IMG/VR virus record: IMGVR_UViG_3300042987_000824
Span: 1-20,004 of that record
Strand: one strand, 5' to 3'
Origin: a virus
Length of the DNA stretch: 20,004 nucleotides
Shown here: in pieces, positions 951 to 13,841 of the stretch
Layout: every line of letters starts with the position of its first letter
Position numbering within the stretch: position 1 is the stretch's first letter
Notes under the pieces: generated by a model
What the model was told of the DNA's origin: nothing
Seen by the model: the letters and a program-made list of their open reading frames with translations, nothing else
Databases searched by the model: none
Made by a program: the position numbers and the translations under genes

Positions 951-1637
951 TTACACGCCTCCAGTTTGAAGAGCGGCAGGGTTCGGGTTGCCACCCTTGC
1001 TGTTGAGGTCGGGAGAAAAGCCAACATCCCGCTGCGTCTTCACGCCAAGCATCGCAGAGAATGCTTGGAAGTAGTTGGTCGCCAACTGGGCGTTGGTCGC
1101 AAACTCCGAATCCTTGTTGTAGGCCCGGAACAGAACGTAGTTCAGGAGAGGCTCTGAATAAATGTCAGCCAGGGCCAGCGTGCTTCCGGTTGTCGTAACG
1201 TCGGCAGGATTTTTGGAGATAACGATCTCCAACTTTGATGTCGACTTTGCTGGCGGGTAAACGTAGAAAACTGTCGGCACCCGGTTGTCATATATGAAGT
1301 TCTTGACAACGACGGCCTGATCGTCTGAATGCCAGTCAGGATTTTGGCTGTCCAGGATGTCGCGGTCTACCAGCCTTACGGCACGTCCGGCAGAGTTGTC
1401 GGCATTGATGTTGCGAGTCACATCCAAAAGACGAATGCCGGTTGCCGGGATAGACTGCTTTGTCCCGGCGGCACACGTCAGGGTTTCAACAGAAACAGAC
1501 GCATCAGGGCGGACCAGAACGATGGCTCGCTGTCCATCGTTGATCCACTTGAAGAACTCCGAGTCTGCCCAGCGGTACGTTGCGACTGTGTCGTTTAGTA
1601 CCAGACGCGCTCGATCAATGATGTCACTCGCCAGCAT
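951..1637 (-). CDS. DUF6682-like phage structural protein
   Basis: A 228-aa protein. The N-terminus MLASDIIDRARLVLNDT, then YRWADSEFFKWINDGQRAI and VLVRPDASVSVETL, fits the family I know as DUF6682, which is common in podovirus-like virion modules and thought to be an adaptor or connector component. Later conserved-looking pieces are GIRLLDVTRNI, RAVRLVDRDILDSQNPDWH and PTVFYVYPPA. The ATG at 1637 lies inside the end of the preceding small gene (14-nt overlap), and the SD there is weak, so coupling is likely. It lies next to the adaptor-like gene, as expected for a head-to-tail connector. The C-terminal tail (GGNPNPAALQTGGV) looks disordered. The family assignment is from memory; the exact virion role is inferred. 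Confidence 0.8.
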   Translation of the reverse strand: MLASDIIDRARLVLNDTVATYRWADSEFFKWINDGQRAIVLVRPDASVSVETLTCAAGTKQSIPATGIRLLDVTRNINADNSAGRAVRLVDRDILDSQNPDWHSDDQAVVVKNFIYDNRVPTVFYVYPPAKSTSKLEIVISKNPADVTTTGSTLALADIYSEPLLNYVLFRAYNKDSEFATNAQLATNYFQAFSAMLGVKTQRDVGFSPDLNSKGGNPNPAALQTGGV

Positions 1638-1833
1638 CGGCTTTCTTCGCCTTCTCTATCTTGAACGGCGTTGATTTCGGTTCCGGCTTCGGCTCAACCT
1701 GTGGCTTTGGCTCGGGCTTTGGCTCCGGTACGAACTCGATCATGTCCGGCCTTTGGGCCAGATGTTCCGTCCAGACATAAACGAAATTCGTTCCGTGCTG
1801 CTTCAGATAACGCATAGGCTTTTGCAACTTCAC
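1624..1833 (-). CDS. Small phage protein, WTE-motif domain plus EPKPEPK tail
   Basis: A 69-aa protein read from a GTG at 1833, which has a strong AGGAGG 6 nt upstream. An ATG at 1815 would give 63 aa and aligns better with its relative. Residues 7-32 (MRYLKQHGTN, VYVWTEHLAQRPDM) closely resemble the first 25 residues of the adjacent glycosyltransferase (MRLLRKRGTN, FVWTEALSQRADM). After this motif comes a Pro/Glu/Lys repeat (EPKPEPKPQVEPKPEPK) and a basic end, probably disordered. Small proteins with such an N-terminal WTE motif occur in podovirus structural modules; their function is unknown to me. The gene starts inside the end of the glycosyltransferase frame and overlaps it for 140 nt in another phase, which is unusual. 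Confidence 0.7.
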   Translation of the reverse strand: MKLQKPMRYLKQHGTNFVYVWTEHLAQRPDMIEFVPEPKPEPKPQVEPKPEPKSTPFKIEKAKKADAGE

Positions 1834-2776
1834 GGCAGACCTCCTCTGGTTTAACGGTGTAGAGAGCGGAGCATCCCATCTCACACACCCGATCCCACCC
1901 CCCACTTCGCTGCCAATAACACTTGGCGCAACTGGCTTCAGCCTCTACCGTTCTCACGGTAGGCGAACACTCGAACAAGAACTTGCCGCTTGCCTGTGCT
2001 ATCACCGCCACGCAAGGGACAGAGTAGAGACCCGCTATGTGCGCTGGGCCGCTGTCGTTGGCGACTACGCAATCCGCATTGGCGAAATAACGCAGAGCAT
2101 CGTTAGCCGACAGACCAATCTGTTTGTCAACATCGACGCCGAAGAATCCTTCGTTGATCGCCTGTCTTCCATCCTCACCGGCAAGCACCACAACCTTGTG
2201 AGTCCGTGACAAATCCTTGGCGATCCTCCGCCAATGCGGCATCGGATATATCCTGGGACGACCGGCAGAGATCGGAGCGAGGACGATATACCCGTTGGGA
2301 TATATAGGCTCTGGCTTGAAGACCGTGTCCGGCCTAGCCGCCTTCACGTCGCCAATATCGAATTGCCGAGACAGATTCCGCAGATACCAATCAAGCCTGG
2401 TCTTTACCGATCCACGGTAAGCCGCTTCTAGTTGCCCATCGTAGTCGTCGTTGATGTCGAAGCACTTCTGGTCCGGCAGGATCTGCACGCCGGGATGCTC
2501 GACTTTCAACCAATCTGGAAACTTCGAGTGGTAAAGAACCTTGAACCCTGCGTTTGCTAGACCACAAGCAACGTATAGCGCACAGACCGCGTCCCCTATC
2601 CCCCCAGCGGAGGTGTAGAACTCGATCGTCCTTGTCTTGATTGGCTCGCTAGGGTACGTCTGGCCGGGCCCGATTCGCATGGCTCGGTCGAGGTACTCCT
2701 CCATGTCCGCCCTCTGTGAGAGCGCCTCTGTCCATACGAATAGTTCGTTTGTCCCCCTCTTCCTCAACAGACGCAT
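1694..2776 (-). CDS. GT9 (ADP-heptosyltransferase-like) glycosyltransferase with phage N-terminal domain
   Basis: A 360-aa protein. Residues 1-25 repeat the WTE motif of the neighbouring small protein. Residues 51 onward look like glycosyltransferase family 9 of the GT-B fold: GGIGD at 58-62 followed by a hydrophobic helix, HPGVQIL at 94-100, APISAGRPRIYP at 167-178, VVVLAGEDG at 195-203 and the typical NDSGPAHIAG at 240-249. A Cys cluster (CAKC, then CEMGC) follows, as in several GT9-like proteins. Family members transfer sugars from nucleotide-sugar donors. The glycan acceptor here is unknown; a virion protein or host LPS are guesses. The start has AGGA upstream and sits 3 nt after the DUF5872 stop. 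The last ~46 residues overlap the next gene out of frame and look unlike the family, so the natural stop may have been lost. Confidence 0.85.
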   Translation of the reverse strand: MRLLRKRGTNELFVWTEALSQRADMEEYLDRAMRIGPGQTYPSEPIKTRTIEFYTSAGGIGDAVCALYVACGLANAGFKVLYHSKFPDWLKVEHPGVQILPDQKCFDINDDYDGQLEAAYRGSVKTRLDWYLRNLSRQFDIGDVKAARPDTVFKPEPIYPNGYIVLAPISAGRPRIYPMPHWRRIAKDLSRTHKVVVLAGEDGRQAINEGFFGVDVDKQIGLSANDALRYFANADCVVANDSGPAHIAGLYSVPCVAVIAQASGKFLFECSPTVRTVEAEASCAKCYWQRSGGWDRVCEMGCSALYTVKPEEVCREVAKAYALSEAARNEFRLCLDGTSGPKAGHDRVRTGAKARAKATG

Positions 2777-2779
2777 TGC

Positions 2780-3163
2780 CTACTTCCTGAACCGTGCAGC
2801 CTTCTCCGCAATCTTCTTGGGCTGCGGGACAAACTGCTTGCCCTTGGCGTTACCCTCAGCCTTGGCCTTGTTGGTAGCCGCCTTCTCCGAGGATGACATC
2901 GCCTTCCACGCTGCGTCTGGTAGGTAACGCTTCTTGCCTTCCGATGGCGTGTTGTCTGAGGTACGCCACTTCTCGCCTGTCCATTTACTCAGGGACTTCT
3001 GCGAGGAGGACTTGCTTCCAGAGTACCCACCGCCGGCCTTCTCATACCTTTGGGCAACCAGTTGCGCTTTCCTGGCAGACCACTCGCCCGGATCGCCACC
3101 CTTGCTTCCAGCCATTACCTCTTTCTTGATCCGCTCTCGCAGAGCCGGTTTCGTGTATCCCAT
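2780..3163 (-). CDS. DUF5872-like small basic protein
   Basis: A 127-aa Lys-rich protein. MGYTKPALRERIKKEVMAGS, then GGDPGEWSARKAQLVAQRY and EKAGGGYSG, followed by QKSLSKWTGEKW, RYLPDAAWKAMSSSEKAATN and GKQFVPQPKKI, fit the pattern of DUF5872, a family found in environmental phages and some large algal viruses with no established function. The ATG at 3163 was chosen because AGGGGGA precedes it and the family pattern starts there. A TTG at 3184 and an ATG at 3181 in the same frame lie in the terminator region. The gene sits between the capsid gene terminator and the glycosyltransferase. Its basic charge and internal SARKAQ/GGGY motifs would suit nucleic-acid binding, but this is inference. Confidence 0.85.
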   Translation of the reverse strand: MGYTKPALRERIKKEVMAGSKGGDPGEWSARKAQLVAQRYEKAGGGYSGSKSSSQKSLSKWTGEKWRTSDNTPSEGKKRYLPDAAWKAMSSSEKAATNKAKAEGNAKGKQFVPQPKKIAEKAARFRK

Positions 3164-3184
3164 TCTTCCCCCTGAACGCATCAA

Positions 3185-3212
3185 GAAAGAGGCAGGGGTG
3201 CCGAAGCACCCC
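3185..3212 (-). terminator. Intrinsic terminator after the capsid gene
   Basis: On the minus strand GGGGTGC and GCACCCC form a perfect 7-bp stem closed by a TTCG tetraloop, followed by TGCCTCTTTCTT. It begins 13 nt after the capsid protein stop codon. A stable stem with a UUCG loop and a pyrimidine/U-rich tail is typical of a rho-independent terminator. It would reduce transcription of the glycosyltransferase and adaptor genes relative to capsid, or protect the capsid mRNA 3' end. Confidence 0.8.
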
Positions 3213-3224
3213 CGCCGTTACTGC

Positions 3225-4196
3225 TTACGCCTTGTAGGCGTAGAGGTCCACCAGAGCCTCGGGCTTGACGACCTTGTAGCCATACACGTTCAGACCGCGA
3301 ACGATGTTGCCGAAGGTCGACTCGCTGCGAAGCGTCTCGACGTTGCTCATCTGGGACGCGAAGGTGATTGCATCCTTCGTGCCAGCGAGAACGTGCCACG
3401 ACTTGCGGTCAGCCGCCGCGCCCGTGCCGCCCGACGAGGAGTCGGAGCCGAGGTCGGTAGCGGACGACAGGTTGTTCGACACGAAGACCGTGAAGCGGTC
3501 GATCATGCCGAGTTTGCCGTTCCGCAGCGGGGACACGCTATCGCCCGTGAGGTAGGCTTGCTTGAGGTCCGACTTCTTCAGGAACGCAGCCATCCACGCC
3601 GGGATAACGATGAAGCGCCCGGTCTCCGGCACGTTCTGCTCGTCGAGAACCTGACCGCAGTCAAGGATCGCGTCGAGGACCGTGGTCGACGACACAGAGC
3701 GGGGAGCGCCAGTCGCACCAAGGTTGATGTCACCGGAGAGCAGACCGGCGGTCGCGCCCTTGTTGGAGGCGTGCGCGTCGGCGTAGACGTTGCCAAGGAC
3801 ATCGCTGTCGATTGCAATCTTCATCTGCTCGGCGGCGTCGTTCGTGAAGATGTCCATCAACTTCACGTCAGCCTGAACTTCCTGCACGTCGTCAACGATA
3901 ACGGCGAAGTACTTGCCCTTATCGATGTTCAGTTCGAGCGGGGTGCTGGACGGAACCTGATTGGTCAGGCTCAGGCCAGAGGTGTAGTTGTTGATCGTGA
4001 TGTTCGGCACGGTGCGGATATGCACCTTGTCGCCCATCGACTTGATCTCACCCTGCCAGTCGGTGTTGGCAATCTCGCCAAAGACCGTCGACTTATAGAA
4101 CTTGACCTGGAGTTTGCCGCTCCAGATTTCGGGGATGAACTTCGACGTACCAGCACCGGAATAACCGGTGTAACCACCTGCGAGAGGGAATGCCAT
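3225..4196 (-). CDS. Major capsid protein
   Basis: A 323-aa protein beginning MAFPLAGGYTGYSGAGTSKF and then IPEIWSGKLQVKFYKSTVFG. This N-terminus is typical of HK97-fold phage capsid proteins in podovirus-like genomes. Further supporting segments are EIKSMGDKVHIRTVPNITI, AVIVDDVQEVQADV (acidic spine-helix region), VLDAILDCGQVLDEQNVPE, GRFIVIPAWMAAFLKKS, FTVFVSNNL and the near-C-terminal NIVRGLNVYGYKVV. Length is normal for the class. The ATG has AAGGTGA 8 nt upstream. It directly follows the scaffold-like gene and is itself followed by a strong terminator, as expected for the most abundant virion protein. No protease gene is recognisable nearby, so capsid maturation may use scaffold exit without cleavage (inference). 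Confidence 0.92.
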   Translation of the reverse strand: MAFPLAGGYTGYSGAGTSKFIPEIWSGKLQVKFYKSTVFGEIANTDWQGEIKSMGDKVHIRTVPNITINNYTSGLSLTNQVPSSTPLELNIDKGKYFAVIVDDVQEVQADVKLMDIFTNDAAEQMKIAIDSDVLGNVYADAHASNKGATAGLLSGDINLGATGAPRSVSSTTVLDAILDCGQVLDEQNVPETGRFIVIPAWMAAFLKKSDLKQAYLTGDSVSPLRNGKLGMIDRFTVFVSNNLSSATDLGSDSSSGGTGAAADRKSWHVLAGTKDAITFASQMSNVETLRSESTFGNIVRGLNVYGYKVVKPEALVDLYAYKA

Positions 4197-5884: not shown

Positions 5885-7891
5885 TCACACTCCTTGCTGT
5901 TGTTGAGGTTGCATATCCGCCCCGCCAGCCGGGTTGCCGGCTGCGTCTAGCGTCTGGGGTGCCTGTTGCTGCGCTTGCTGCATTTGCATCATTGCTTGTT
6001 GCATTGCGCCAATCTCTTGCTGGTGCTTTAGCGCCTCTTGGCTCGGAACGAGTTTGTCCGTATCCATCTGGAGCGTTTTGGCAACCTCTCGCAGCAGATA
6101 GGCGCGACCATCAGGCCCGATGATCTGGAGGTCGACCGGGTTGGCAGTCGCAGCAAGGAACTCATTGCGACGGACCTGCAATTGCTCGCGGGCGAGCAGA
6201 CCCATTGCGCCCTTGGCGACGATGTTGAAGTCGCCCTTGATGTAGGGGTCCGGGTTGTACATCATGTTGTGGACGTAGAACCGATGCACGATCCCAGCCA
6301 CCACCCGGTCAATCTGAGCGATCGCGGCCTTGATCCCCTTCGCCGCGTTGTCCATCAACATCGACAGACCGGAGGCGGTACGCCCAGCGCCGCTAACAGA
6401 CGCAGACCCGTAGACGTAGTTGGGAATGCCGGTGACCTCGTCGGCCTGTCGCGCAAACTGCTGATACACGCCCATCAGTTCCGCAGCCTTCATGTCAGGC
6501 ACGAAGAACCGGATTCCGGCCTGACCGCCACCCGTCTTGTCAGAAGATGTTTGCCAGATCTTCCACGGGTACATCTGGGTAAGGTCTTCGCCTTCCGCCA
6601 GACGGTCCACGTTCACCTCGACCTGGGGGCCAGAGGCGATACCCATGTTGTTCGCCAGAGCGCGGGCAGCGGCGTTACAAAGGATCTGCACGTCGCGCAT
6701 GATCTCCGGCAAGGCCGTACCCCAGAACGAGCCGGGGATGTGTTCCCAAGACGTGATCTCGTATGGACGGCGACCAAGAGGATCGGGATTTAGGACGCAC
6801 TTGATAACGTGGTTCCCGACCATCCAAGCGTTGACCTCGTACTCGCCCATCGGGTCAACATCGTCCATCCCCCACTCGATCAGCATATCGCCAGACACAG
6901 GACCCCAGAACTCAAGGGCCTCGATCGTGTTGTCGGTGTGCAGTTCTGCGTGGGGCTTGCCCTCCAGGTCGTCGCGCTGCTCGTCTCCCTGCACCCACGA
7001 ACGCAGACCGCCACGACCGTAGTCGGCAAGGGCGGAGGCGATCATGTCGCTACTGTATCCGGGGACGCCCATGAATGACTTGAGGACTTCCCGGTTCAGC
7101 CGGTGGCGCTGGATAAGGAAGTTGTCATCAACCGACCCCGAGTTCGGAGCCGGGTAGATGTCATACGGGGAGACGCGTTCGATCTCGCGGTTGAAGTCCG
7201 AGACGACGATCGGCATGAACTCCGGCCCCCACTCCAGCCGTTTCTTCTTGCGAACAGACGGCCCCTTGAGTATTGCGGTGGGGTAGGTAACGAAGTCGGA
7301 GATGAAGTCGTTGAACGCCTTCTCCCAACTACCCTTGTTCAATTGGTCTTCGATCACGTCGCCCATCCGACGCGCACGCTCTTTCGACTCCTCCTTGATC
7401 TGGAGAAGGATCTGATCGTGTACCTCAGCCAAGCGCATTGAGAATGTGTCAGGGTGCAACTTGGCACCCATTGCCAAGAACTCCTGCGCCTCGGCCTGAA
7501 CCATGCGAATGATGTCGAGTTTTACCTCAGGAGGGATCGTCGGCTGCTCGGCAGGGGTGAGATCAAACGGACGCTCGCGCATCGTGATCATTACGTCCTT
7601 GATCCACGACTCAGCAGCCCGACACTTGATGTCGGTGAGCATCATAAAAATATCAGAGCCGCCAGTCTTGGCGATCTCCATAGCGCGGTCAGGGTCGTAC
7701 ACACCTCGACGTTGACGCTCGCACTTCAACAGACGCTCTGTCAGTTCGGTCTTGGCAAACTTGGCCTGGTTCCAGCAGTTCGTAATATGACCAGCAATGG
7801 CATACCCAAAGCGGGCGTTCTCTTCGCCGAGATCCTCGACACGAACATCTATTGCCGCTGGCGGTACTGCCTTGACTACTCTCACGTCCAT
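5885..7891 (-). CDS. Portal protein
   Basis: A 668-aa protein of the size usual for podovirus portals (about 600-750 aa). Portals form the dodecameric vertex ring through which the terminase pumps DNA. Recognisable features are the N-terminal helical part (NCWNQAKFAKTELTERLL), RMGDVIEDQLNKGSWEKAF (a typical portal clip/stem-type pattern), RVSPYDIYPAPNSGSVDD, NPDPLGRRPYEITSWEHIPG, WGTALPEIMRDVQILCNAAA and the segment GIPNYVYGSASVSGAGRTAS. Its last ~60 residues are Gln/Met-rich (AMQQAMMQMQQAQQQA), probably a flexible internal barrel extension. The start overlaps the end of the large terminase by 10 nt, as common for packaging genes. The two tiny basic genes follow within 3 nt. Confidence 0.92.
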   Translation of the reverse strand: MDVRVVKAVPPAAIDVRVEDLGEENARFGYAIAGHITNCWNQAKFAKTELTERLLKCERQRRGVYDPDRAMEIAKTGGSDIFMMLTDIKCRAAESWIKDVMITMRERPFDLTPAEQPTIPPEVKLDIIRMVQAEAQEFLAMGAKLHPDTFSMRLAEVHDQILLQIKEESKERARRMGDVIEDQLNKGSWEKAFNDFISDFVTYPTAILKGPSVRKKKRLEWGPEFMPIVVSDFNREIERVSPYDIYPAPNSGSVDDNFLIQRHRLNREVLKSFMGVPGYSSDMIASALADYGRGGLRSWVQGDEQRDDLEGKPHAELHTDNTIEALEFWGPVSGDMLIEWGMDDVDPMGEYEVNAWMVGNHVIKCVLNPDPLGRRPYEITSWEHIPGSFWGTALPEIMRDVQILCNAAARALANNMGIASGPQVEVNVDRLAEGEDLTQMYPWKIWQTSSDKTGGGQAGIRFFVPDMKAAELMGVYQQFARQADEVTGIPNYVYGSASVSGAGRTASGLSMLMDNAAKGIKAAIAQIDRVVAGIVHRFYVHNMMYNPDPYIKGDFNIVAKGAMGLLAREQLQVRRNEFLAATANPVDLQIIGPDGRAYLLREVAKTLQMDTDKLVPSQEALKHQQEIGAMQQAMMQMQQAQQQAPQTLDAAGNPAGGADMQPQQQQGV

Positions 7892-10679: not shown

Positions 10680-10695
10680 CAGGTTGATTTACTTT

Positions 10696-10725
10696 TTTGG
10701 ACACCTAACCGGCTGCGTGTCCAAA
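10696..10725. promoter_or_regulatory. Operator-like inverted repeat
   Basis: TTTGGACAC and GTGTCCAAA form a perfect 9-bp inverted repeat with a 12-nt spacer. Half-sites are 21 bp apart, two helical turns, as for a dimeric DNA-binding protein. It ends 16 bp upstream of the -35 box of the minus-strand promoter, a position suited to an activator or repressor. Confidence 0.5.
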
Positions 10726-10896
10726 TTTCGACCGAATCCAGTCCATATCTCCGTGGTAGCAGCCCAAATCCTCAACCCAAACTTTCCGAGCCGCTGAAAG
10801 ATAACCCCCCAATGGGGTCCCAATAGCCCCCCTATAGCCTCCCCATTTGGTCCCGTGGGGGGGGGTGCCAAAAAAATAGGCGGACTTTTCTGACAT
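10705..10896 (-). CDS. Possible 63-aa protein (uncertain)
   Basis: A 63-aa ORF with an ATG at 10896 and GAGGTG 8 nt upstream. It begins MSEKSAYFFGTPPHGTKWGG and ends YHGDMDWIRSKFGHAAG. Composition is protein-like, with several aromatic residues, and the region is less G-biased than the DNA further right. It covers a G9 tract and an A7 tract and its stop codon lies in the operator-like palindrome, both of which argue for a regulatory rather than coding stretch. No family is recognised. Real coding capacity is doubtful, and a 232-aa frame overlapping the same DNA on this strand is even less convincing. Confidence 0.25.
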   Translation of the reverse strand: MSEKSAYFFGTPPHGTKWGGYRGAIGTPLGGYLSAARKVWVEDLGCYHGDMDWIRSKFGHAAG

Positions 10897-11094
10897 CCGG
10901 GCGACACCTCAGGGGCGAGGGGGTCGAGTGCTTGTGATGGGGATAGGAGGAGAGGCTCGTGACGCCGGGGGGGTCGGCGGCGTGGCCCGGCGGGGGGGCC
11001 GGCGGGGGTCTGGCGGGCGTCTGTCGAGGCCGGCGGGAGGTGGCGGCACCCCCTGCGGAGGGGGTCGAGGCCCCGGTGGCGGGCTGTTGGCGGT

Positions 11095-11127
11095 GGGGAG
11101 AGGGCCGGCGGGGGGCGGTGGCGGGGG
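11095..11127 (+). repeat. Canonical G-quadruplex motif
   Basis: Four G-runs (G4 at 11095-11098, G3 at 11102-11104, G6 at 11110-11115, G5 at 11123-11127) are separated by loops of 3, 5 and 7 nt, which meets the G3+N1-7 rule. A second candidate with G7, G5 and G3 runs lies at 10992-11017. Confidence 0.55.
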
Positions 11128-11426
11128 CCGGTGCCGGTCGGTGGCGTCTGTCGGATTGATGATCCGCGGGTCGGGCGTGCCGGCTCAAGGGGTTGGCGGT
11201 GGGGTGCGCCGTTGGTGGGGCGTGACGCCCTGCCGGCTCTGGGGCGCCGACGGTCTCGGGAAGGGTAGCGGTACCCCGGCGGCTGTTGCGTGGCTCTGGG
11301 GCCGTTCTGGCGCGTCTGGGAGGGCCTCTGGTGGCGTTTTGAGTTCCCCGAAGGGTTGCCCATGAGGTCTACCGGGAAATCAAGCACTTGCGAGTGTTGA
11401 CCCCCCCATCGTTTCGGGCCTGTTCT

Positions 11427-11642
11427 GGCCTCTCCCGGTTCCCTGCTCTCCCCTGTCTTCCCTTCCTTGTCTCCATGAGGGTACGGCGGGCGGGTTGGGG
11501 TCGGAGGGTTGCGCGGCGGGGGTCTGGTGGCTGCGCGGGTGCCTTGCCGATCGCCCAGTCTGGCCCCGGCTCTGCATGGTTCCCCTGCTCTCCCTCTCCC
11601 TGTCTGGGCCTCTCCCGGCAGGGCCGGGGTCGGAGGGTTGCG
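11427..11642. repeat. Mosaic direct repeats
   Basis: GGGGTCGGAGGGTTGCG occurs at 11497-11513 and 11626-11642. GGCCTCTCCCGG occurs at 11427-11438 and 11607-11618. A related TTCCC(C)TGCTCTCCC block occurs near 11439 and 11579. The order of the blocks differs between the two copies, so this is not a simple tandem duplication. Confidence 0.6.
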
Positions 11643-11799
11643 GGCCGGCCTATCACCCTGTCGGGAATCGATTGCCTTTGGCCCCTCAGACAGGCGGATT
11701 CGATTGGAATAATCAATTAGAGCAAAATGTAGGTGCTGAACGATAATTTGACTCGTTGCACCGATTCACCCCCCTTTACCCACAATAACGGAGCATTAC

Positions 11800-12963
11800 A
11801 TGAGCATCGCAGCGCAAGTCGAAGCACTCCCCAAGTCGACCATCCTCGACCTCATCAAGAACCTCAACGGCGGCACGATCGGGTTCGACCATGAGCGAGT
11901 CAAAAAGGCCGAATGCGCCGAGCGCCTGATGGCATTCGGTGAGCAGCGCGTCTCGGCCCTCATCAACGGCGACACCGCAGCGGCTGCTGCACCGGTCGTC
12001 GAGAAGGTCATCGCGGTTGGCGGGGTTCAGTCTGTTGCGGCCCCGGTGACGGCGGTCGACCAGAACGCGATCGCCTCCCAGATCGCCGGCCTCTTCGCCA
12101 CTCTCGCCGGCTCCGCAGTCAACGAGCAGCGGGTGCGCGAGATTGTCGCGGGCGAAGTCGAGGCTGCTCTGGAGCGTTCCCCTGTCGTGACGATCGAGGT
12201 CAAGCGTGCCGACGGCACCACTCACACGGTCGAGGGCCACACTCGCCCCGAGTTCGCCGACGTTCTGACGGCGGCGTCTGTTGGGCTCAACGTGCTACTG
12301 GTCGGCCCCGCCGGCTGCGGCAAGACGCACCTCGCGCACCAAGTCGCCACCGCGCTCGGTCGCCAGTTCGCGTCCATCTCATGCACCGCCGGCATGAGCG
12401 AGTCGGCCCTCATGGGTTGGATGCTCCCCGGCCCGGGCGGCGAGTTCGTCTACGTCCCCTCTGACTTCGTCACGGTCTATGAGCAGGGCGGCGTGTTCCT
12501 GTTCGACGAGATTGACGCCGCCGACAGCAACACGCTCCTGTTCGTCAATCAGGCCCTCGCCAACGGTTCGTTCTACCTGCCGCAACGCAAGGGCGCGACG
12601 AAGGTCACGCGCCATCCCGACTTCGTCTGCATCGCCGCCGCCAACACCTACGGCACCGGCTCCAACATGGTCTACGCGGGCCGTGAGCGCCTTGACGAGT
12701 CGACCCTCGACCGCTTCCGCGCCGGCACGATCGAGTTGGGCTATGACCAGAAGTTGGAACGCGCCGCAGTCGACCCCGAGGTTCTGGCGTGGGGGTGGGC
12801 CGTTCGCAAGCGCATCTCCGAGGCCCGTCTGTCGCGTGTTCTGTCGACCCGATTCCTGCTCGACGCGACGAAGTTGGTCAAGGCCGGTCGCACGTTGGAT
12901 CAGATCAAGGCCACCTACTACACCGGTTGGAAGGCCGACGAACGCGCCAAGGTGGAGGTCTGA
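11800..12963 (+). CDS. MoxR/CobS-like AAA+ ATPase
   Basis: A 387-aa protein. Residues 1-150 are a helical, Ala-rich region starting MSIAAQVEALPKSTILDLIK, with no recognised domain. The AAA+ module (AAA_5/MoxR-CobS-like) follows: Walker A GPAGCGKT at 169-176, Walker B VFLFDE at 232-237 with Asp236 and Glu237, sensor-1 Asn282 in IAAANTYGTG, and an arginine-finger-type DRF around Arg305. The insertion SESALMGWMLPGPGGEF resembles the MoxR helix-2 insert. Such ATPases remodel partners, usually through a vWA-domain protein. The next gene, 2 nt downstream, encodes a possible degenerate vWA-like protein. CGGAG precedes the ATG after a long leader, so this is the promoter-proximal gene of the plus-strand operon. 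Its substrate is unknown. Confidence 0.88.
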   Translation: MSIAAQVEALPKSTILDLIKNLNGGTIGFDHERVKKAECAERLMAFGEQRVSALINGDTAAAAAPVVEKVIAVGGVQSVAAPVTAVDQNAIASQIAGLFATLAGSAVNEQRVREIVAGEVEAALERSPVVTIEVKRADGTTHTVEGHTRPEFADVLTAASVGLNVLLVGPAGCGKTHLAHQVATALGRQFASISCTAGMSESALMGWMLPGPGGEFVYVPSDFVTVYEQGGVFLFDEIDAADSNTLLFVNQALANGSFYLPQRKGATKVTRHPDFVCIAAANTYGTGSNMVYAGRERLDESTLDRFRAGTIELGYDQKLERAAVDPEVLAWGWAVRKRISEARLSRVLSTRFLLDATKLVKAGRTLDQIKATYYTGWKADERAKVEV

Positions 12964-12965
12964 TC

Positions 12966-13841
12966 ATGCTCACGCACAAGGCCGACAAGGAAGTGGTCAT
13001 CCTCTGGGACTCGATCACCGAGCCCGCCGAGGCCGCTGCACGCATCACCAACGAGGCCCGCCGCACCGAGGCCGCGCAGTTCGCCGCAGGAACCTACACG
13101 AAGTCGCAGGACGATGCAGAGTGGTTTGGCTGCTCCCTGCCCGAGTTCCACCAACGCATCACCGGGGGATGGGCCGAGGGCGTCGATCGGGTTCTGGCTC
13201 TGGAGTGCAAGGTTCGCGAGGCTGCGACTCTGGCTGCGAAGAGCGTGCGCCGCCGCCGCGTGCGTGAGGGGCAGGGCGACGAGGTCGATATGCAGTCGGT
13301 CTGGCGCGGCGACATCTCCCGAGCGTGGACTCGCACGCGCCGGCAGTCCCGGGTCTCGACTCGCGTGGTCTCGATCATCTGCAACGTGGGCGGGCTGTCG
13401 AACGTCACAGCAGCCGACCTGTTCTGGTCGGGCGCTGCTGCTCTGCGCCTCGCCAACGAGTTGACGGCGGCGGGCTACTCGGTCGGCCTGTACGCGGGCC
13501 AGTACTCCGACAACGTCGACGAGGCCCGCAAGGTGGGCGGCGGGCAGTTCGTCGAGATCAAGGCACCGGACGCGCCGCTCGACCTGTCGAAACTCGCCGC
13601 CATCACCTGCCTCGCCGGCTATTTCCGCACCGCCATGTTCGCCGGGAAGGTTGTCGCAATGGACATGGCGGGCCGCAACGTCAACCCGGGCCTCGGCTAC
13701 ACCAACGTCGACAAGGTGGCAGCAGCGGCTGCGAAGGTCGGCCTGACGGGCTGCATCGTCGAGCCCGCCATCTACTCCGAGGCTCAGGCGGTGGCGTGGG
13801 TGGCCTCCCAGACCGAGCGACTGGAGGCGGCAGCAGCGTGA
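12966..13841 (+). CDS. vWA-like protein (degenerate MIDAS), ATPase partner
   Basis: A 291-aa protein starting at an ATG 2 nt after the ATPase stop, with GGAGG upstream. Residues 1-110 are charged and helical, containing AEWFGCSLPEFHQRITGGWA and a basic patch KSVRRRRVREGQ. From about 133 a Rossmann/vWA-like core begins: RVVSIICNVGGLSN, then a long helix DLFWSGAAALRLANELTAAG, YSVGLYAGQY, and later KLAAITCLAGYFRTAM. In a normal vWA the first strand ends DxSxS; here the position reads NVGGL, so metal binding is probably lost. I associate this layout with a phage protein family accompanying MoxR-like ATPases (possibly DUF7192). The vWA call is inference from fold pattern and gene order. An upstream extension of the frame overlaps the ATPase gene and is rejected. 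Confidence 0.75.
   Translation: MLTHKADKEVVILWDSITEPAEAAARITNEARRTEAAQFAAGTYTKSQDDAEWFGCSLPEFHQRITGGWAEGVDRVLALECKVREAATLAAKSVRRRRVREGQGDEVDMQSVWRGDISRAWTRTRRQSRVSTRVVSIICNVGGLSNVTAADLFWSGAAALRLANELTAAGYSVGLYAGQYSDNVDEARKVGGGQFVEIKAPDAPLDLSKLAAITCLAGYFRTAMFAGKVVAMDMAGRNVNPGLGYTNVDKVAAAAAKVGLTGCIVEPAIYSEAQAVAWVASQTERLEAAAA

Follow-up and report, generated by a model that had tools for sequence, protein, structure and literature searches.

The window analysed here is a 20,004-nucleotide stretch of viral DNA (IMG/VR virus record IMGVR_UViG_3300042987_000824, positions 1 to 20,004). Its minus strand carries a head module, in which the genes for the terminase, portal, scaffold and major capsid protein (MCP) are followed by those for a DUF5872-like protein, a family GT9 glycosyltransferase, a small protein and an adaptor (Table 1). 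The start of the DUF5872-like gene, which lies between the MCP gene and the glycosyltransferase gene, is uncertain, an ATG near 3160 being likelier than the listed TTG. For the small gene, the start at GTG 1833 was favoured, with AGGAGG at 1840-1845, 6 nt upstream; this is most likely where the small protein starts, and the gene therefore overlaps the GT9 open reading frame (ORF) by 140 nt. Within the GT9 ORF, dN exceeded dS in codons 320-345, and residues 331-360 of the protein model were disordered (pLDDT<50). The last ~40 residues of this ORF are thus taken to be a mere out-of-frame reading of the small gene.

The glycosyltransferase and the small protein share a segment, termed WTE after its motif. 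A preliminary description had reported that the first 25 residues of the enzyme match the adjacent small protein, and this match was found to be real, with correct coordinates and sequences. Residues 1-29 of the enzyme aligned without gaps to residues 7-35 of the small protein, with 16 of the 29 positions identical, and BLASTP between the two proteins gave an E-value of 2e-10. In a shuffle test the 29-residue match had z=9.9, and none of 20,000 shuffles came near it. A WTE profile of 9 sequences, those of L001 among them, matched both copies in this relative of the window (E=1e-21 and 2e-22). The possibility of a ubiquitous chance match, raised in the preliminary description, is contradicted by the BLASTP, profile and shuffle results. 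The extent of the segment did have to be revised, from a bare 25-residue match to a predicted mini-domain of ~29 residues. As judged from sequence, the shared segment is a real mini-domain of ~30 residues with a predicted beta-beta-alpha-beta arrangement. AlphaFold2 models of the stand-alone protein and of the fusion had this small unit in common; mean pLDDT was ~89 for residues 11-30 of the stand-alone protein and 76-79 for the first 30 residues of the fusion. Purifying selection acts strongly on the protein sequence of the fused WTE (dN 0.03-0.09 against dS 0.18-1.1), which is therefore translated and constrained.

Table 1. Genes and features of the head module in the window
Feature	Position	Strand	Details
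Large terminase	9318-7882	minus	
Portal	7891-5885	minus	
Probable scaffold	5194-4244	minus	
Major capsid protein (MCP)	3225..4196	minus	phrog_267 7.8e-63; PF25209
Terminator-like hairpin	3190..3216	minus	immediately 3' of MCP gene; -24.6 kcal/mol
Small DUF5872-like head-module protein	2780..3184	minus	phrog_14910 3.6e-32; PF19197 under its cut-off
Likely ribosome-binding site of WTE-GT9 gene	2783-2788		AGGAAG
WTE-GT9 fusion gene	1694..2776	minus	360-codon ORF, ATG start
Fused WTE mini-domain	2690..2776	minus	residues 1-29; predicted beta-beta-alpha-beta
GT9 domain, heptosyltransferase-type, GT-B fold	1817..2626	minus	residues ~51-320; PF01075
3' end of GT9 ORF	1694..1816	minus	next gene read out of frame; apparently unconstrained
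Stand-alone WTE small protein	1624..1833	minus	69 aa from GTG; WTE domain followed by Pro/Glu/Lys-rich tail
WTE mini-domain of small protein	1729..1815	minus	residues 7-35
SU10-type adaptor	951..1637	minus	PF24175 3.2e-33

Two consecutive minus-strand genes of the window, 297-950 and 951-1637, were both SU10-adaptor-like, the second scoring 26.7 bits against a cut-off of 27. On the strand opposite to the head module, an AAA+ ATPase-like ORF with the motif GPAGCGKTH (11800-12963, plus) was followed by an uncharacterised gene (about 12789-13841, plus). The long overlapping Arg/Pro-rich ORFs on both strands at 10689-11720, between the two gene blocks, are probably non-coding G+C-rich sequence.

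The earlier assignment of the enzyme to GT9 was borne out by its match to PF01075 (39 bits, cut-off 22), and 14 of 14 relatives of the enzyme also matched this family at E<=0.001. The enzyme model had a GT-B fold, for which Foldseek returned 1psw (8e-11), 3tov (1e-10) and 2h1h (2e-9), the nearest folds being WaaF, the Veillonella GT9 protein (3tov), WaaC and TibC. The window enzyme has the motifs GIGD, NDSGPAH and Cys-X2-Cys-X11-Cys-X3-Cys, the last being a conserved four-cysteine motif in the C-lobe (residues 283, 286, 298 and 302). GIGD (or GVGD or GLGD) and NDSG..H were present, with small variations, in all 13 sequences. By analogy to WaaC, the Asp of GIGD may be the catalytic Asp of the N-lobe loop, and NDSG..H, as the D/H motif of the C-lobe, may provide donor-site residues. 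In family match, fold and these two motifs the enzyme is thus like the GT9 proteins WaaC and WaaF, but it differs from them by its N-terminal phage head-module domain and by its locus between MCP and adaptor. It also resembles TibC, a bacterial autotransporter heptosyltransferase: both combine a GT9-type fold with an additional N-terminal domain, and the four C-lobe cysteines of the window enzyme recall the iron-finger of TibC. TibC, an enzyme of GT9 fold, has a protein as its acceptor and depends on its N-terminal domain, and its iron-finger is formed by Cys 339, 342, 358 and 370 (PMC4358343). The N-terminus of TibC is a beta-barrel of ~97 residues, whereas the window enzyme is without one and has just the 29-residue mini-domain and a linker before the glycosyltransferase. 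The cysteine spacing differs too, being CX2C-X11-C-X3-C in the window enzyme and CX2C-X15-C-X11-C in TibC.

WTE was found at the N-terminus of small proteins that make up a family, whose genes lie between those for MCP and the SU10-type adaptor in dozens of contigs from metagenomic phages. The stand-alone WTE protein is thus a widespread, unnamed small head-module protein, typically made up of WTE, a Pro/Glu/Asn-rich linker and a short basic tail. The only known family matching several members was phrog_31421, which has no name and no assigned function; among 34 stand-alone WTE proteins it matched 17, at 4e-6 in the best case, while its match to the small protein of the window was weak (0.0014) and partly due to the low-complexity tail. 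No relative of WTE was detected among solved structures in the PDB, where just meaningless MbtH-like matches were obtained (E>=4.6), and no predicted viral structure matched at E<=0.001, the best being the unnamed A0A516LIC9 (rmsd 0.6 over 31 columns, E 0.04). Named phage records gave a single half-length, insignificant match to WTE proteins and zero matches to the fused enzymes. In bacterial genomes, none of the five matches to WTE was a WTE protein, and relatives of the glycosyltransferase core were not found. As judged by gene numbering, gp10 of phage SU10, which has a related head module, takes the same position as the WTE proteins, between MCP gp9 and adaptor gp11, and it was not seen in the cryo-EM particle (PMC9509320). 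SU10 gp10 is predicted to be immunoglobulin-like, unlike WTE with its predicted beta-beta-alpha-beta arrangement.

Variants of the small protein were also observed. Two tandem WTE copies were present in one head-module protein of L123 (3662-4462) and of L216 (7748-8578), each with a long C-terminal part that by eye ends SAP/HeH-like; a Pfam search of the L123 protein recognised no family. In the more distant MCP clades, the basic tail of the WTE proteins of L129, L149, L159 and L174 was replaced by a segment that looked SAP-like by eye.

WTE-GT9 fusions were found in metagenomic phages of five lineages, four of them clear and the fifth probable, all in the slot between MCP and adaptor. These phages are uncultured and short-tailed. 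In lineage A (the window and L001-L004) the gene order is MCP, DUF5872-like, WTE-GT9, stand-alone WTE and adaptor, and the homologues in L001-L004 aligned with the window fusion over residues 1-357. Lineage B (L089-L093 and L126, the latter with its start cut off) has WTE-GT9 directly after MCP, and no second WTE was found in contigs of 47 and 58 kb. The order is MCP, WTE-GT9, stand-alone WTE and adaptor in lineage C (L173), and MCP, fusion and adaptor in both lineage D (L201) and lineage E (L204). The slots of lineages B, D and E were without any second WTE copy. The WTE N-terminus was clear in lineages A, B and C, was detected in E by HMM search (E=1e-5) and was weak in D (HMM E=0.07, shuffle z=5.7). 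The glycosyltransferase cores of different lineages were 30-40% identical.

Lineages D and E came from a search with the glycosyltransferase core only, which returned 17 loci and is not an unbiased census, because it was seeded with fused enzymes. Among these loci, all enzymes in the MCP-adaptor slot with their 5' end present had a WTE or WTE-like N-terminus (that of L201 weakly so). Three free enzymes without WTE (L200, L202 and L203) were all in other phage contexts. Relatives lacking the N-terminal segment, which the preliminary description had regarded as evidence against a fused domain, therefore occurred only in unrelated phage contexts.

On the MCP tree, the distribution of the fusion required 5 changes, at least 4 of them forced by well-supported branches; these changes are gains or losses of the gene in phage lineages rather than fusion events. 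The sister of L173 (lineage C) was L186, in which the slot is enzyme-free and the flanks are 89% and 81% identical. Lineage B grouped with L122 and L148, and the tail of its fusion, EPDIKEMAKVLLKRK, matched the C-terminus of the stand-alone WTE proteins of L122/L148 and L011 (family-wise 4 of 1000 shuffles). The same comparison for lineages A, C, D and E gave nothing beyond chance. From these sequences, the lineage B enzyme appears to have been placed inside the resident protein, with the N-terminal domain of the latter before it and the C-terminal tail behind it. No WTE protein other than the fusion occurs in the contig, and the fusion would therefore do the job of the resident protein, if this is needed. 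Lineage E grouped with L021, and the E domain and the slot protein of L021 have an unusual FEIF ending in common.

The preliminary description had suggested that a duplication captured a glycosyltransferase. As a local event, this was not upheld. On the WTE tree, a weak tree of 29 columns, the fused WTE of lineages A and C lay apart from the adjacent stand-alone WTE, and in the slots of B, D and E there is none besides the fused one, so that local duplication is not supported as the source of the fused WTE. A single fusion event, followed by transfer of the whole gene among related phages, is a possible origin, although on balance a doubtful one, and would be compatible with any functional reading. 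The fused WTE of A and C grouped together (95/84), along with the tandem copies of L123, a single clade of the fused WTE from A, B and C was not rejected (p-AU 0.285), and the tree of the glycosyltransferases did not resolve and was compatible with one or several origins. Against a single origin, free enzymes were as close to lineage A as lineages B and C are, the tail of B is similar to stand-alone proteins from the sister clade of B on the MCP tree, and FEIF ends the domain both in E and in L021, the sister of E on that tree. Repeated grafting and single spread both stand, given the weakness of the 29-column trees, the p-AU value and the lack of resolution in the glycosyltransferase tree. 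A mixture of repeated grafting and transfer of one fusion is likely, and part of the recurrence pattern could be due to horizontal movement of the fused gene as a whole.

The joining of WTE and GT9, which probably took place on several independent occasions, suggests, without proving it, that the enzyme is directed to virus particles as they form. We tentatively favour, at somewhat less than an even chance, the reading that the enzyme is docked through WTE to the head under assembly and glycosylates a virion protein. A phage GT9 glycosyltransferase follows WTE in-frame in several related lineages, and in this scheme WTE would bind to some component of the (pro)capsid or connector. A flexible linker may then let the GT-B enzyme reach its target, to which it would add a sugar from a nucleotide-sugar donor during assembly. 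The donor might be ADP-heptose-like if the enzyme resembles its nearest solved relatives. The docking reading is supported by the homology of the two domains, the selection on the fused WTE, the recurrence at a single genomic slot, the free relatives without WTE elsewhere, the enzyme-free sister and the intact GT9 motifs. Against it speak SU10 gp10, the counterpart by position that was not seen in the particle, the Ser/Thr content of the MCP, the weakly WTE-like domain of lineage D, and the glycosyltransferase tree with its failure to separate one origin from several. Targeting to a structure had been suggested previously; its basis, a domain common to the enzyme and a head-module protein, stood and was extended by the recurrence of the fusion, which makes the targeting role itself plausible.

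Phage glycosyltransferases have been linked to capsid-protein glycans in Che8-type mycobacteriophages (Freeman et al. 2023, as cited in PMC11256854 and PMC12691614). The announcement PMC11256854 locates the enzymes towards the 3' end of the genome and mentions no head-module fusion, whereas the window enzyme is encoded beside the capsid gene. By analogy, TibC and mycobacteriophage capsid glycosylation agree with a virion protein as acceptor, without proving it. The MCPs of enzyme-bearing phages were no richer in Ser/Thr than others (0.161 against 0.152, within range). An enrichment of the MCP in Ser/Thr had been considered for L173 and L186, with 7 against 1 S/T-only positions, but the wider comparison was flat. 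In the SU10-like phage L064 (2949-4280), an FkbM methyltransferase and a family-2 glycosyltransferase were located between the MCP and adaptor-type genes. Enzymes that modify sugars have here come to occupy the MCP-adaptor slot independently, which by analogy agrees with glycosylation of a virion protein but does not prove it. The glycosylated capsid or adaptor protein hinted at in the preliminary description has in its favour the gene position, this parallel in L064 and the precedent in other phages.

The enzyme might instead act on the host surface, with the lipopolysaccharide core or some other glycan as its target and a block to superinfection as one conceivable effect, WTE serving only expression, stability or oligomerisation. 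The nearest solved relatives are indeed the lipopolysaccharide heptosyltransferases WaaF and WaaC, and the free relatives in other phages sit outside the head-gene slot, so that catalysis there needs no WTE. We consider this role unlikely, as neither a late head-gene position nor repeated fusion to a head domain is necessary for it; moreover, WTE was absent from the bacterial genomes searched, and thus nothing indicates lysogenic conversion. The fusion could also be a by-product of a gene-accepting slot, in which an insertion borrows the translation signals of the resident gene and WTE is useless to the enzyme. Such an outcome would fit the variability of the slot and the terminator-like hairpin that directly precedes WTE starts, but it is hardly reconciled with the strong purifying selection on the fused WTE, with the conservation of this domain across lineages whose glycosyltransferase cores have diverged so far, or with the C-terminal tail that lineage B also keeps, and we regard it as quite improbable. 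It is more improbable still that the sugar goes to a WTE protein or its partner, with WTE pairing the enzyme and the stand-alone WTE protein and the linker of the latter being glycosylated. The two genes are adjacent and overlapping in lineages A and C, and some linkers contain Ser/Thr/Asn; yet in lineages B, D and E the slot lacks a stand-alone WTE protein to pair with, and the linker of the window protein is nearly free of Ser/Thr.

A further form of the docking reading makes WTE a general head docking tag to which phages have repeatedly attached a glycosyltransferase. The assembling particle would then contain the enzyme in stoichiometric amount, in lineage B as the sole form of the resident protein, and the virion may carry it too. 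We think this improbable, at about the level of the host-surface role. If true, sugar transfer would be an activity built into the phage head. Research on glycosylated phage virions is at an early stage, also as regards the way in which these enzymes locate their substrate. A mini-domain that recurs before one enzyme class at one genomic position is a natural and testable targeting signal. If this holds, it would provide a tag of ~30 residues for sending proteins to phage heads, and a role for a common, unnamed small head-module protein.

A hairpin after the MCP stop was also observed in L173 (minus strand, just after the stop at 6935), L089 (3942-3990) and L122 (3955-4000). In several relatives, WTE starts a few bases past the hairpin without a separate Shine-Dalgarno sequence, as if read-through of the hairpin sets the level of the WTE gene.
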